Shown: positions 395 through 5,082 of the stretch, piece by piece
How positions within the stretch are numbered: the first letter of the stretch is position 1
Layout of the letters: each line of letters opens with the position of its first letter
Notes under the pieces: model-generated
What the model saw: only the letters and a program-made list of their open reading frames with translations
Database searches by the model: none
What the model was told of the DNA's origin: nothing
Assembly: GCA_021734045.1 (NCBI GenBank)
Contig: JAIPJR010000116.1
Coordinates: 1 to 6,007 of the forward strand
Length of the DNA: 6,007 bases
Direction of reading: 5' to 3'
Source of the DNA: Fidelibacterota bacterium
GTDB lineage: Bacteria > Fidelibacterota > UBA8477
Translations under genes and position numbers: made by a program

Positions 395-1978
395 ATGCAC
401 AGCACTGCGGGACGCATTAGCCGATGGTTGGGAATCAGTATTTTCACGCTGATCCTGCTCAATGCGTGCTGCGGACCCGACCCATATCGTAATTATTTCA
501 AATTCTCCGAGATCAGCGACCCAAAATCCCTGGACCCGGCCCTCTCTACGGATGTCTTTACCGCCGTGAAGGTCACCCTGCTTTACGACAACCTGGTGAA
601 ATTCGGCGTTGGCAGCGAAATTCTGCCCTCCGTGGCGCGGGATTGGACAATTTCACCAGATGGCAGACGCTACACCTTTCATCTCCAGCCCGGGTTTCGG
701 TTCATCAATGGCCGTCAAATGACCGCGCAGGATGTGAAATTTTCATTCGAGCGCGTATTGAATCCGGAAACCCGCTCGCCCATGACCTGGCTGTTCACCC
801 CCATCGTGGGTGCCGAGGCATTTCAAAATGGTGACAGGGATGAGGTAGCGGGCTTGATTGCAGAGGATTCATTGACCCTGACCATTGTGCTTAAAACACC
901 CTTCGCGCCATTTCTGGGATTCTTGGGAATGCCGGCAGCAGCGATTGTGGCACCGGAAGGCGTGACGGCGGCCGGTGACCGCTTTGGCGAAAAGCCATTG
1001 GGCAGCGGTCCCTGGATTTTGGAAGAGTGGTGGCACGATAATTATCTCAGTTTTAAGCCCAATCCCGACTATTTCTTCGGTCCGCCAAAACTGGAGGGTT
1101 TGCAGATTCGGATTATTCCGGAGGTGCTCACCATGGCGGTGGAGTTTGAATCGGGGAATCTGGATATGATGACAATTCCCAATTCCGAATTCAAATACTG
1201 GACCCACAGTCAGGTTTGGCGGCCCTACATCCAGAAATTTCAGGAATTGGCGTTTTACTACATCGGACTGAATTGCGAGCGGCCACCCTTTAACAATCCC
1301 CGCGTGCGGCAGGCCGCCAGTCTGGCCATTGACCGGGAGAAAATCATCAAGCGCATTCTTCATGGCGCCGCCGAAGCCGCCAATGGACCCATTCCGCCAG
1401 CACTACCGGGGCACAATTTTGAACGGCCGGTGGATGCGTTTAATCCTGAGCGAGCGCGGCAGATATTGCGGGAAGAGGGCTACCCGGATGGTTGTGAATT
1501 TGAACTCTGGGCGGATCAGGACGCGGGGGTTTCCCAGACCCTGGAGGCGATTCAGTCTTATTTGAATGACGCCGGATTCAAAGCCCGGATTGTACGGAAT
1601 GACTGGAACATGATGCGGGATGCCATGCGGCGCGGCAAGACGGACGCCTATTGGGGCAATTGGTGGGCGGATTATGCCGATGCAGAGAATTTTCTATCAC
1701 CGCTCTTCCACACCAAAACGGCGGCATTGCGGAACCGGTATTCCAATCCGAAGGTAGATGATTTGATTGAAAAGATGCAGCAGGAGCCGGATGACTCCCT
1801 GCGGGCTGGATTGGCCACGCGGATTGACTCGATTCTGGCGGTGGATGTACCCTACATTTTCATGTGGTACCCCACCACCTACACGGTGGTACAACCCTGG
1901 GTGCGGGATTATCAGGTTCATCTCATGCCCAATGCCAATAAATACACCGAACCGTGGTTTGACCGGGAGGGGGAGTAG
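395..1978 (+). CDS. Peptide ABC transporter solute-binding lipoprotein (family 5)
   Basis: This is a 527-residue extracytoplasmic binding protein of the SBP_bac_5 family (OppA/DppA/NikA type), which captures oligopeptides, dipeptides or similar ligands and delivers them to an ABC permease. The N-terminus has Arg7 and Arg10, a hydrophobic stretch (about 12-22) and a lipobox Leu22-Asn23-Ala24-Cys25, so a lipid-anchored protein is predicted, with cleavage before Cys25. Family landmarks are DPKSLDP at 42-48, the SVARDWTISPDGRRYTFHL block, TAQDVKFSFER, GSGPW at 203-207, and NNPRVRQAASLAIDR from 300. Length is normal for the family (about 500-600). ATG 395 is chosen because it gives a complete lipoprotein signal; no good Shine-Dalgarno sequence precedes it. 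Hand-counted GC over 1081-1380 is 53%. The substrate cannot be read from sequence; a peptide is the family default. The matching permease lies 3.1 kb downstream, past the repeat array. Confidence 0.93.
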   Translation: MHSTAGRISRWLGISIFTLILLNACCGPDPYRNYFKFSEISDPKSLDPALSTDVFTAVKVTLLYDNLVKFGVGSEILPSVARDWTISPDGRRYTFHLQPGFRFINGRQMTAQDVKFSFERVLNPETRSPMTWLFTPIVGAEAFQNGDRDEVAGLIAEDSLTLTIVLKTPFAPFLGFLGMPAAAIVAPEGVTAAGDRFGEKPLGSGPWILEEWWHDNYLSFKPNPDYFFGPPKLEGLQIRIIPEVLTMAVEFESGNLDMMTIPNSEFKYWTHSQVWRPYIQKFQELAFYYIGLNCERPPFNNPRVRQAASLAIDREKIIKRILHGAAEAANGPIPPALPGHNFERPVDAFNPERARQILREEGYPDGCEFELWADQDAGVSQTLEAIQSYLNDAGFKARIVRNDWNMMRDAMRRGKTDAYWGNWWADYADAENFLSPLFHTKTAALRNRYSNPKVDDLIEKMQQEPDDSLRAGLATRIDSILAVDVPYIFMWYPTTYTVVQPWVRDYQVHLMPNANKYTEPWFDREGE

Positions 1979-2043
1979 GTATTAGCGCGTTATTGGGCAT
2001 CTACCAGAACCAGCTTTTGGGATATCAGACCGCGAGCAAAAGG

Positions 2044-2288
2044 ATTCCCCTCTTGAGAGGGGACTAAGGGGTGTGTTTCTTATAGCAAATAATTGTCAAA
2101 AGACAGGTTTAGATCGAAAGACTATTTAATTGGTAGATCAATGGACATACATCTCACCCACCGCTTCGGCGGAGCCTGCCTCGACGGAGCTTCAGCGAGT
2201 CCCGGCGAGTCCCGGCCTGCGGCCACCCCTCCGGGGGAGGGGATTTACCAAAGCGCGATTATTTGGATCTCCCAGTGCAAACAAAGGG
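2044..2288 (+). repeat. Repeat unit 1 (left arm alpha, module A)
   Basis: This 245-bp unit has a CT-to-TT change at the centre of its palindrome (CCCCTCTTGAGAGGGG), the only copy among the six so altered. The left arm (alpha type) reads CTTATAGCAAATAATTG. The hairpin is CCGCTTCGGCGG, which caps a 4-bp stem with a TTCG loop. The middle module A contains CCTCGACGGAGCTTCAGCG, a short tandem GCGAGTCCCG pair and GGCC-TGC-GGCC. The second hairpin is CCCCTCC-GGG-GGAGGGG (2226-2242). The linker ends CCCAGTGCAAACAAAGGG. Confidence 0.88.
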
Positions 2289-2528
2289 ATTCCCCTCTCG
2301 AGAGGGGATAAAGGGGTGTGTTTCTTATAGCAAATAATTGTCAAAAGACAGGTTTGGATCGAAAGACTATTTAATTGGTAGATCAATGGACATACATCTC
2401 ACCCACCGCTTCGGCGGAGCCTACAGCGAGCCCCGGTCTGGCTTCGCTACCGCTCAGACCGGGGCACCCCTCCAGAGGAGGGGATTTACCAAAGCGCGAT
2501 TATTTGGATCTCCCAGCGCAATCAAAGG
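2289..2528 (+). repeat. Repeat unit 2 (left arm alpha, module B with long hairpin)
   Basis: This 240-bp unit shares its left arm with unit 1, with about four differences over the first 130 nt. Its middle module (type B) is different: an 11-bp perfect stem GCCCCGGTCTG (2430-2440) pairs with CAGACCGGGGC (2455-2465) around a 14-nt loop. The second hairpin is CCCCTCC-AGA-GGAGGGG (2467-2483), and the linker ends CCCAGCGCAATCAAAGG. Confidence 0.88.
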
Positions 2529-2772
2529 ATTCCCCTCTCGAGAGGGGATAAAGGGGTGTGTTTTTGGTGGCGAAAAATCGCGAAAGTTGGCTTTAGTTTG
2601 AAAGAGCACTTAAATGGTTAGGCTGTGGACATACATCTCACCCACCGCCTCGGTGGAGCCTGCCTCGACGGAGCTTCAGCGAGTCCCGGCGAGCCCCGGC
2701 CTACGGCCATCCCTCCGGGGGAGGGGATTTACCAAAGCGCGATTATTTGGATCTCCCAGTGCAAACAAAGGG
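2529..2772 (+). repeat. Repeat unit 3 (left arm beta, module A)
   Basis: This 244-bp unit has the beta arm (GGTGGCGAAAAATCGCGAAA, then a TTGGCTT block). The beta arm aligns with alpha over its whole length but is clearly diverged. The arm ends in the hairpin CCACCG-CCT-CGGTGG. Module A and the CAAACAAAGGG linker match unit 1, except that GGCC-TAC-GGCC replaces GGCC-TGC-GGCC and the second hairpin (2710-2726) begins TCCCTCC, keeping a T:G pair. Confidence 0.87.
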
Positions 2773-2846
2773 ATTCCCCTCTCGAGAGGGGATACAGGGG
2801 TGTGTTTCTTGTGGCAAAAAGCGTCAGACGAGTTCTTGGCTTTTAG

Positions 2847-2858
2847 GTTAAGCTTAAC
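2847..2858. promoter_or_regulatory. 12-bp perfect palindrome abutting the DUF559 start codon
   Basis: GTTAAGCTTAAC is its own reverse complement and ends directly before ATG 2859. It lies where the repeat arm stops resembling the other units. There is no Shine-Dalgarno-like purine run in the same place. It might be an operator, for instance for self-repression, or a small hairpin over the ribosome site. A 12-bp palindrome could also arise by chance. Function is inferred from position only. Confidence 0.35.
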
Positions 2859-3260
2859 ATGAAAAAAATCCTACCATACCGTCCTGATCTGAAGGAAAAA
2901 GCGCAAAAGCTCAGGCAAAATTCCACGCTTTCCGAAGTGTTATTATGGAATCACCTCAAACAGAAGCAAATGTATGGCTATCGATTTCACCGCCAAAAAC
3001 CGATACTGGATTATATCGTGGATTTTTACGCGCCAGAATTAATGTTAGCTATTGAGATTGATGGGTCCAGCCACAATGAATCAGTAGCTCATGATAGAAA
3101 AAGAGAAAAGGCGATTGAAAAATTGGGCGTTCGTTTTTTAAGGTTCCAGGATCGTGATATCCAGTACCGAATTAACGAGGTCCTCATTACAATTCAGGAA
3201 TGGATAGAAGCGCATGAGCGTGCCAATGAACAGGAGCAGAACCCACCCCTGCCCGGCTAA
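2859..3260 (+). CDS. DUF559 domain protein, Vsr-like endonuclease fold
   Basis: This 133-residue protein is a complete DUF559 domain, a family related to very-short-patch-repair (Vsr) and other PD-(D/E)XK-type nucleases. Visible landmarks are the helical LRQNSTLSEVLLW block (18-30, Glu26 conserved), YRFHRQKPI (41-49), DYIVDFY (51-57, Asp55 as likely metal ligand), and AIEIDGSSH (64-72, with Glu66, Asp68 and His72). A DRKREKAIEKLGVRFLRF stretch follows from about 79, then a C-terminal helix. All expected catalytic-type residues are present, so it looks intact. The last residues (about NPPLPG) are encoded by repeat sequence, and the TAA lies in the loop of the hairpin at 3251-3268. GC over 2881-3180 is about 41% by hand count, well below the neighbouring genes. 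No Shine-Dalgarno sequence is evident before ATG 2859. Its biological role is unknown; it may be a DNA nuclease tied to the flanking repeats. Confidence 0.88.
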   Translation: MKKILPYRPDLKEKAQKLRQNSTLSEVLLWNHLKQKQMYGYRFHRQKPILDYIVDFYAPELMLAIEIDGSSHNESVAHDRKREKAIEKLGVRFLRFQDRDIQYRINEVLITIQEWIEAHERANEQEQNPPLPG

Positions 3261-3268
3261 AGCCGGGC
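3251..3268 (+). terminator. Hairpin enclosing the DUF559 stop codon
   Basis: GCCCGGC (3251-3257) pairs perfectly with GCCGGGC (3262-3268) around the loop TAAA, whose first three bases are the stop codon of the DUF559 gene. A second hairpin, CCCCTCC-AGA-GGAGGGG (3271-3287), follows after two bases. There is no T-run straight after either stem, so this is not a classic intrinsic terminator. Two strong stems at the end of a message could still slow transcription or protect the 3' end of the RNA. Confidence 0.4.
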
Positions 3269-3330
3269 CACCCCTCCAGAGGAGGGGATTTACCAGAGCC
3301 AGCTTCTATGACTCAGGGCGCAATCAAAGA

Positions 3331-3573
3331 ATTCCCCTCTCGAGAGGGGATAAAGGGGGGTGTTTCTTATGGCGAAAAATCGCGAAAGTTGGCTTCAGTT
3401 TGAAAGAGCACTTAAATGGTTAGGCTGTGGACATACATCTCACCCACCGCCTCGGTGGAACCTGCCTCGACGGAGCTTCAGCGAGTCCCGGCGAGCCCCG
3501 GCCTGCGGCCACCCCTCCGGGGGAGGGGATTTACCAAAGCGCGATTATTTGGATCTCCCAGCGCAATCAAAGG
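3331..3573 (+). repeat. Repeat unit 5 (left arm beta, module A)
   Basis: This 243-bp unit combines the palindrome at 3331-3350, a beta arm (TTATGGCGAAAAATCGCGAA), the CCACCG-CCT-CGGTGG hairpin, module A with GGCC-TGC-GGCC and the CCCCTCC-GGG-GGAGGGG hairpin (3512-3528). Its linker, CCCAGCGCAATCAAAGG, is the type otherwise joined to module B in unit 2. This unit is thus a different combination of the same parts. The base before the palindrome is A instead of G (AAAGAATTCCCC). Confidence 0.87.
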
Positions 3574-3836
3574 ATTCCCCTCTCGAGAGGGGACTAAGGG
3601 GTGTGTTTTTGGTGGCGAAAAATCGCGAAAGTTGGCTTCAGTTTGAAAGAACACTCAAATGGTTAGGCTGTGGACATACATCTCACCCACCGCCTCGGTG
3701 GAGCCTACAGCGAGCCCCGGTCTGGCTTCGCTACCGCTCAGCCCGGGCCACCCCTCCAGAGGAGGGATTTACCTGGTCACGCTCATTGGGTAGCCGAACG
3801 CATGCGATGGGAATTCCCGCTTGCAGGGAAGGATTA
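3574..3836 (+). repeat. Repeat unit 6, decaying right edge of the array (module B/C hybrid)
   Basis: The palindrome (3574-3593), beta arm and CCACCG hairpin are well kept. The middle module starts as B (GCCCCGGTCTG, 3714-3724), but its right arm CAGCCCGGGCC (3739-3749) has the GGGCCACCCC of module C, so only 9 of 11 stem pairs form. The second hairpin has lost one G (GGAGGG, 3761-3766). After GATTTACC the sequence departs from the other linkers and ends in AATTCCCGCTTGCAGGGAA (3812-3830), a weak palindrome 239 nt after the unit start. This looks like a degenerate last copy. Confidence 0.78.
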
Positions 3837-3882
3837 AAAGCAATCCGGAAAATTATCTACAACGCTAAATAGAGTAGGAAAT

Positions 3883-5082
3883 ATGAACACTACAACCACC
3901 AGTCTGATTTCCGATCCCGTAGGCGTAATGGTCTATCTGCTGGGACTCATCGCGGTCATTTATTGGGCGCAGGGGCAGCCGCGTTTTGGGAAAGTCTTTA
4001 AATATCTACCGCCGGTAATTTGGATTTATTTCCTGCCCATGTTTTCCACAACATTGGGCATTACGCCGCCCGCTTCACCCCTGTATGAATTTGTAAAACT
4101 GAACCTCCTGCCAGCCGCATTGATTCTGCTGTTGCTTTCATCCAATATCCGTGAATTGGCGCATCTGGGTCCCAAAGCGTTGGGAACCATGTTGTTCGGC
4201 ACCGTGGGAATCGTGGTGGGTGGCGTGGTTGCACTGGCACTGTTCGGTCACTGGCTGCCGGAAGATGCCTGGAAGGGAATGGGCGCCCTCTCTGGTAGTT
4301 GGATCGGTGGCAGTGCCAATATGGTGGCCATCGGGACATCCATCGGCACGCGGGATGACCTGTTCGGCATCATGATTATTGTGGATACAGTTGTGGGATA
4401 CGGCTGGATGGGCGTGGTGATTTTCCTCTCAGCTTTTCAGGAGCGGCTGGACAAATGGAATGGCGTCGACGCCAGCCATATTGATGACATGGACGCCCGG
4501 ATGCAGGCAGTGGGTGAAGCCAATCGCCGACCCCTCACATTCCGGGAATTGAGTCTGATGGTTTTCATCGGACTGGGCTTCGGCTATCTGGCGCTACAGG
4601 CGGGAAATTATCTGCCGGATGTGGGCAGTGTGATTACCTCCTTCGCCTGGACGATTATAATCGTTTCCATCATTGGATTACTTTTGTCACTCACCCGTTT
4701 TTCGTCACTTGAGTATGCCGGCGCCAGTCATGTGGGCAACATCTTTCTCTATCTGCTTCTGGCGACGATTGGCGCAAAAGCTGATTTACAGGCCATTACC
4801 CAGGCGCCCATGTTTCTGGTGGCGGGTGTGGTCTGGATTATCATCCATGCTACGATACTCTTTTTTGGTGGAAAATTGTTGAAAGCACCCATGTTTCTCA
4901 TCGCCACATCCAGTCAGGCCAACATTGGTGGCGTGGTGAGCGCCCCCATTATCGCGTCGGTTTACCGGAAGTCCCTGGCACCGGTGGGCTTGCTCATGGG
5001 TGTGGTGGGTAATGTGATCGGGATTTACTTCGGACTGTTAACCGCCCAGCTCATGGCCTGGGTTGCCAATATCTATTTTTAA
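3883..5082 (+). CDS. DUF819 family integral membrane protein (YjcL-like)
   Basis: This 399-residue, strongly hydrophobic protein has roughly ten to twelve membrane segments, for example about 14-28, 42-60, 70-86, 96-118, 160-182, 222-240, 250-268, 308-330 and 368-396. I recognise the DUF819 family from the GSWIGGSANMVAIG block (138-151) and the SSQANIGGVVSAP block (343-355). These two small-residue, Asn-containing loops sit in the two halves of the protein and suggest an internal duplication, as in secondary transporters. A charged cytoplasmic-type segment lies near 187-220. Length is normal for the family. The start ATG 3883 is preceded by AGTAGGAAAT, a weak, closely spaced ribosome site. 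It begins right after the repeat array and ends 38 bp before the ABC permease start, so co-transcription with the permease is likely. No substrate is established; a peptide or muropeptide link is only inferred from neighbours. Confidence 0.85.
   Translation: MNTTTTSLISDPVGVMVYLLGLIAVIYWAQGQPRFGKVFKYLPPVIWIYFLPMFSTTLGITPPASPLYEFVKLNLLPAALILLLLSSNIRELAHLGPKALGTMLFGTVGIVVGGVVALALFGHWLPEDAWKGMGALSGSWIGGSANMVAIGTSIGTRDDLFGIMIIVDTVVGYGWMGVVIFLSAFQERLDKWNGVDASHIDDMDARMQAVGEANRRPLTFRELSLMVFIGLGFGYLALQAGNYLPDVGSVITSFAWTIIIVSIIGLLLSLTRFSSLEYAGASHVGNIFLYLLLATIGAKADLQAITQAPMFLVAGVVWIIIHATILFFGGKLLKAPMFLIATSSQANIGGVVSAPIIASVYRKSLAPVGLLMGVVGNVIGIYFGLLTAQLMAWVANIYF

Follow-up and report, generated by a model that had tools for sequence, protein, structure and literature searches.

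Does the small nuclease gene that lies inside a tandem array of palindromic repeats in a Fidelibacterota genome move these repeats, or is it only carried among them? The array is found in the window (the whole stretch of DNA analysed, 6,007 nucleotides), between a gene for a family-5 solute-binding protein (395-1978) and a DUF819 gene (3883-5082), in an assembly of 2.54 Mb that comprises 119 contigs and is 92% complete. The first-pass annotation, made from the letters alone, had described six tandem units with shared palindromes, one of them carrying an intact DUF559 gene, and had compared this layout to REP repeats and their associated transposases, with an autonomous form and gene-less derivatives. 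As judged from comparison of sequences, we regard it as established that DUF559 genes belong with triplex-type hairpin repeats in a single family of elements, and that the unit shows strong signs of mobility. The array itself is probably a local amplification of a mobile family of triplex-end repeats, with DUF559 as the enzyme that moves them.

Layout of the array and its nuclease gene

Palindrome positions and a profile match bear out the description of six tandem units, five without a gene and one with an intact DUF559 gene. The tandem array is real, although its limits are about 2046-3772 and not 2044-3836 as first drawn. Each unit starts with the palindrome TCCCCTCTYGAGAGGGGA (starts at 2046, 2291, 2531, 2775, 3333 and 3576, thus spaced by 245, 240, 244, 558 and 243 bp), with a tail such as AGGGGTGTG behind it, and closes with CCCCTCC-NNN-GGAGGGG (starts at 2226, 2467, 2711, where it is one base shorter, 3271, 3512 and 3751), before which lies a C-rich tail split off by further palindromes. 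The shared palindromes are repeated as had been claimed, but the repeated end is the palindrome plus a G-tail, with a C-tail at the other end. The features, in window coordinates, are as follows:

2017..2045, + strand: partial copy of the inter-unit spacer (the full spacer, from the right hairpin of a unit to the next left hairpin, is 46-49 bp)
2046..2290, + strand: unit 1, gene-less; left hairpin 2047-2062 with tail AGGGGTGTG, core, right hairpin 2226-2242
2047..2073, + strand: example of a left end, CCCCTC-TTGA-GAGGGG-ACTAA-GGGGTG, a pyrimidine-purine-purine (intrastrand-triplex type) motif
2291..2530, + strand: unit 2, gene-less; left hairpin 2292-2307, right hairpin 2467-2483
2531..2774, + strand: unit 3, gene-less; left hairpin 2532-2547, right hairpin 2711-2726
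2775..3332, + strand: unit 4, gene-bearing; left hairpin 2776-2791 with G-tail, DUF559 gene, right hairpin 3271-3287
2859..3260, + strand: DUF559 gene for a predicted endonuclease, 133 aa, intact; last codons (NPPLPG) and stop within the right-end repeat
3251..3268, no strand: extra palindrome GCCCGGCTAAAGCCGGGC, between the right hairpin of unit 4 and its tail
3333..3575, + strand: unit 5, gene-less; left hairpin 3334-3349, right hairpin 3512-3528
3576..3772, + strand: unit 6, gene-less, end of the array; left hairpin 3577-3592, right hairpin 3751-3767

The five gene-less units, each with a core about 160 bp long, are 70-95% identical to one another. With these the gene unit has its ends alone in common (59-63% identity overall, 91% over about 45 bp of the left end), and the single palindrome GCCCGGCTAAAGCCGGGC, within which the DUF559 stop codon falls, stands where the other units have their middle palindromes. 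Because the similarity is confined to the ends, the gene-less units of the array did not arise from this gene unit by simple deletion. The whole-genome search that had been proposed for the 18-bp palindrome (with its leading T) returned six copies in the 2.5-Mb genome, all of them in the array, and no match to the reversed pattern; the array is therefore not a product of chance. A search of the window against Rfam gave no match. Elsewhere in the same genome, hairpins of the right-end type (CCCCTCC..GGAGGGG or similar) form three further arrays, noticed on contigs C46 (about 939-1364), C75 (about 389-777) and C115 (about 1310-1610), with periods of about 201, 366 and 260 bp, respectively (L069, L070 and L071).

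The gene product matches PF04480 (3.2e-30, 104.7 bits against a curated cut-off of 20.6), its other Pfam match, MTES_1575, lying below the cut-off. It is the sole DUF559 gene found in its own assembly, and a relative with 72% identity occurs in Candidatus Neomarinimicrobiota. In the 72 DUF559 domains sampled, the rounded conservation of E26, Q46, D55, E66, D68, G69, H72 and D79 is 100%. Structure prediction (mean pLDDT 82) gave a model that is nearest to the solved DUF559 protein 3hrl (Z 14.5), followed by the I-Bth0305I homing endonuclease (catalytic domain, 3r3p_A, Z 11.3, rmsd 2.2 over 94 residues) and by Vsr (1cw0, Z 8.9); VIA-align structure rows under the top few were not taken as relatives. 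A profile match of DUF559 to 3r3p was obtained as well (E 1e-4), in whose alignment an A stands opposite D55 and no H opposite H72, E26, D55, H72 and D79 being invariant in DUF559. DUF559 is a single-domain protein with a predicted EDxHD/Vsr fold and a predicted nuclease role. It has this fold in common with I-Bth0305I and Vsr, yet, unlike them, it consists here of the catalytic domain alone and lies between hairpin repeats. NGO0050 of N. gonorrhoeae (3hrl), YcjD of E. coli and VsrA of Caulobacter belong to the same Pfam family as the window protein; in the open-access literature we found no tie of these three to flanking triplex repeats.

Hairpin ends beside DUF559 genes in other genomes

The genome of the window alone could not have decided the interpretation. 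The systematic survey of flanks covers one phylum: 40 DUF559 loci, with up to 20 kb around each, were taken from 120 evenly drawn Pseudomonadota genomes. We counted hairpins that paired a C-run with a G-run, carried a tail, pointed inward and lay within 300 bp of the gene. Far from lacking flanking repeats, DUF559 genes elsewhere usually have them: inward hairpins with tails stand on both sides at 22/40 loci and on one side or both at 35/40, whereas for ORFs of the same regions taken as controls the counts are 0/457 and 51/457, respectively. A single side accounts for 13/40 loci, and at 5/40 the rule detects no inward hairpin. This rule was chosen after examples had been viewed, so that the exact fractions depend on it, and the 40 loci are partly non-independent (several per genome, two or three orthologous), but neither point matters beside so large a contrast with the controls. 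Upstream of the 40 genes, an inward end is present in 29, and 1 has an outward end alone. Vsr genes of the same phylum have such hairpins on both sides in 0/28 cases and on any side in 1/28, and among 18 RAYT genes of Neomarinimicrobiota, the genome of the window included, none has both inward ends, other palindromes being found there. The association of DUF559 with these ends is also present at Neomarinimicrobiota loci. Moreover, the stop codon or the end of the frame lies inside or past the repeat tail (C-tail) at 33/58 loci.

BoxC/PIT/TM repeats were already known from bacteria in the 1990s. They consist of a C-rich arm, a G-rich arm and a mirroring G-rich tail, and are intergenic, widespread and arranged in inverted pairs of two end types, all of which holds for the repeats described here. 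To judge from their motifs, the window ends share the intrastrand-triplex architecture of BoxC/PIT/TM. All six left ends score 1.0 by a mirror rule for the pyrimidine-purine-purine intrastrand triplex, and for the 146 hairpins nearest to DUF559 genes this rule gave 79/146 inward versus 28/146 outward (p=2e-6); one junction, folded as single-stranded DNA, formed hairpins with a z of -1.41. Compared with TMECO of E. coli, the architecture is the same and the flavour is different, the window flavour being CCCCTC..GAGGGG-AGGGGTG and the common one CCCTCTCC..GGAGAGGG-TTA-GGGTGAGGG. In E. coli K-12, Holder et al. (PMC4666352) reported 23 copies, with five inverted pairs of two types, and instability of the repeat loci; triplex-type motifs were tied there to genomic instability, and polymerase blocks in vitro are given for this motif. 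The same 2015 survey (PMC4666352) saw no transposase or integrase remnants near the E. coli sites and found no mobility activity. BoxC/PIT/TM repeats were thus described without an associated enzyme, whereas here such ends flank DUF559 genes.

The ends also match each other and their gene. Similarity between the upstream and the downstream end of one locus is 0.555, higher than between genomes (0.280, p=9e-17) and higher than with other loci of the same genome (0.389, p=8e-4). End similarity rises with that of the DUF559 proteins (Spearman 0.265, reached in 0/2000 permutations; 0.58 among pairs from the same genome), from 0.27-0.30 at protein identities below 50% to 0.63 at 60-80% and 0.84 above 80%, the closest protein pairs including orthologues. 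As for the load of repeats, a pattern for one common flavour matched 732 times in the 120 Pseudomonadota genomes, compared with 26 matches for the reversed pattern. It had been reasoned from the window that genomes rich in the repeat should not be devoid of DUF559, and the counts agree: at least 10 copies are present in 13/25 genomes with a strong DUF559 match and in 3/95 without one (p=2e-8), and among genomes of at least 4 Mb in 11/15 and 2/34, respectively. In Neomarinimicrobiota, DUF559 occurs in 6/8 genomes with repeats, the same trend in weak form (p=0.03). The motif reaches 158 copies per genome, almost all distant from DUF559, and gene-less units also occur. In the three repeat-rich genomes that have no strong DUF559 match (G100, G117 and G122, with 12-21 repeats), DUF559 may have been lost or missed, or the repeats may have been moved by another enzyme. 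The gene itself is patchy and often multicopy, with up to 10 matches per genome, and is repeatedly broken by stops. An in-frame stop was seen within the copies L011, L017, L018, L019, L034 and L109, as is expected of decaying element genes.

Duplicated units and occupied or empty sites

In one genome assembled as a single contig (G036), two DUF559 units separated by 1.3 Mb have 99.4% identity over 643 bp, and this identity starts and stops at the outer edges of the hairpins. At this pair, no target-site duplication was evident by eye. Tandem pairs of DUF559 units were seen in three other genomes (L016/L031 in G003:C74, L021/L036 in G023:C13 and L113/L116 in G062:C111), that of G003 being 99.6% identical over 687 bp.

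A look for empty sites in closely related strains had been suggested; empty sites were found in congeners. At a locus of one genus, between the lon gene, accompanied in most genomes by a zinc-finger gene, and a gene for a membrane protein, three genomes (G005, G009 and G013) carry the DUF559 unit and its hairpins. The unit is absent in seven congeners (G006, G007, G010, G011, G017, G019 and G021), where the zinc-finger and membrane-protein genes are 41-173 bp apart. G019 has two such zinc-finger/membrane-protein loci, both empty; the occupied G005 has no zinc-finger match at its lon/membrane-protein locus, and G004, with no zinc-finger match there, was left out of the count. The empty sites are too diverged for a base-level comparison of junctions. 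In ten sister-family genomes, moreover, the neighbourhood of the solute-binding protein and DUF819 genes is syntenic, with no array or repeats. All these comparisons of occupied and empty sites are between species, and a loss of the unit would be as possible as a gain.

In sister-family genomes (L075-L081 and L083-L085) a small open frame seems to separate the gene for the solute-binding protein from the DUF819 gene; no such frame is seen at the position of the array (window 1978-3883). The window's own genus was discarded as a source of empty sites, G001 and G002 having no match to the neighbouring DUF819 protein. E. coli ycjD, which has such repeats downstream and none upstream, was likewise rejected as an empty site within one species, as the examined strains that lack ycjD carry an efflux gene set between fabI and sapF and the repeats are one-sided. 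At fabI-sapF, a stretch that covers 80% or more of the ycjD query from K-12 is present in 3333 of 5426 E. coli genomes. In all three ycjD-less strains examined (E. coli L160, L161, L162, L165 and L166, compared with L096 of K-12) an RND-efflux gene set adjoins fabI, and in two of the three it was traced as far as sapF.

Which enzyme may move the repeats

Perhaps the repeats are spread by a RAYT-type transposase, by replication slippage or by template switching, with DUF559 as cargo caught between the copies. PF01797 transposases do occur in 42 of 60 relatives, the genome of the window among them, whole-unit tandem duplication is common, and three repeat-rich genomes are without a strong DUF559 match. 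Yet the RAYTs of these genomes have other palindromes and in none of the 18 cases both such ends; random cargo would be diverse, whereas no control ORF and no Vsr gene has hairpins on both sides; and the flavour of the ends follows the DUF559 protein, within one genome too. We consider this explanation rather unlikely. The chance reading, that GC-rich genomes yield CCC..GGG hairpins beside any gene, can draw on the control ORFs that have an inward hairpin on one side or more, but it is already contradicted by these same controls, none of which has both sides, as well as by the small number of matches to the reversed pattern and by the recurrence of the association at Neomarinimicrobiota loci; we give it next to no credence.

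The main functional counter-reading comes from Caulobacter, where the DUF559 protein VsrA was proposed to repair T:G mismatches (VSP repair) in connection with a cytosine methylase, and where the SOS response of the methylase mutant depends on VsrA (PMC12907096). DUF559 in general would then be a Vsr-like mismatch nuclease kept for the benefit of the host, and the hairpins would be terminators or regulatory sites. The kinship of its fold to Vsr fits this view, but a motif so widely dispersed, almost always away from DUF559, together with the existence of gene-less units, does not, nor do a patchy, often multicopy and repeatedly interrupted gene and the absence of such flanks from Vsr itself. 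We judge it unlikely. It is very unlikely, in our opinion, that DUF559 moves nothing and cuts hairpin or triplex structures that stall replication, being kept nearby by selection: a guard acting in trans need not sit between inverted, flavour-matched copies or be duplicated as a hairpin-bounded unit, even though the triplex-type ends, with the genomic instability and polymerase blocks in vitro reported for such motifs (PMC4666352), speak for it.

DUF559 as the mobilising enzyme is the best explanation, because its association with the ends is specific, oriented and flavour-matched. We infer that DUF559 cuts these ends and drives their movement, possibly as follows. The gene-bearing unit would consist of hairpin, G-tail, DUF559 gene, C-tail and hairpin, and the non-autonomous forms would be the units without a gene and the dispersed, inverted end pairs. 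In cruciforms or where single strands are exposed, DUF559 may recognise the hairpin/triplex end that has its own flavour, and may nick or cut at the edge of that end, after which host repair would copy or re-insert the hairpin-bounded segment. Break-and-copy from a homologous end, in a homing-like manner, could produce tandem arrays and the insertion of genes between existing ends, while joining of a released segment elsewhere could account for dispersal. Homing endonucleases of EDxHD type are known (PMC3943268), which makes the break-and-copy mode plausible by analogy only. The idea of an autonomous form with gene-less derivatives, as in REP/RAYT, thus gains from the inward flanks on both sides, the matching ends, their correlation with the similarity of the DUF559 proteins, the enrichment of repeats, the duplicate units and the occupied and empty sites; it has to be amended in that the derivatives are not simple deletions of the gene unit and that the relevant end is hairpin plus tail, not the 18-bp palindrome alone.

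With somewhat less assurance, we lean towards a class of mobile elements across bacterial phyla in which a single-domain EDxHD/Vsr-like nuclease, and no transposase, disperses triplex hairpin repeats including BoxC/PIT. If the link is true, it would provide the first candidate enzyme for the long-known BoxC/PIT-type repeats, a role for a family of unknown function, a mechanism testable in laboratory E. coli and further culturable strains for a widespread class of repeats, and a new kind of mobile DNA that pairs a homing-endonuclease-like nuclease with triplex-type ends. The parts are known, and in the open-access literature we found no paper that makes the link between DUF559 and triplex repeats; among the literature searched the pairing is rated new, and the mechanism is a proposal.

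The nearest parallel is given by REP/RAYT systems (REPtrons and REPINs; PMC3733652, PMC3116915), which have small palindromes in inverted pairs, a gene-bearing form between inverted copies, many gene-less copies and matching flavours. The DUF559 unit resembles them in its gene between inverted palindromic repeats and in its gene-less copies. The enzyme of REP/RAYT is an HUH tyrosine transposase (PF01797), whereas DUF559 has an unrelated fold, for which Pfam and structure point to an endonuclease; moreover, the ends of the DUF559 element carry G/C tails, unlike those of REP/RAYT, and RAYTs of the same genomes have other palindromes. CGTC-tagged REPs, which are also found without a transposase (PMC3733652), were set aside as a different repeat. 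Two Y1-type transposase genes are present in the genome of the window (L223 and L224, on contigs C59 and C60), the former surrounded by its own palindromes (GCTCCGGGCTTTAGCCCGGAG), unlike the DUF559 ends.
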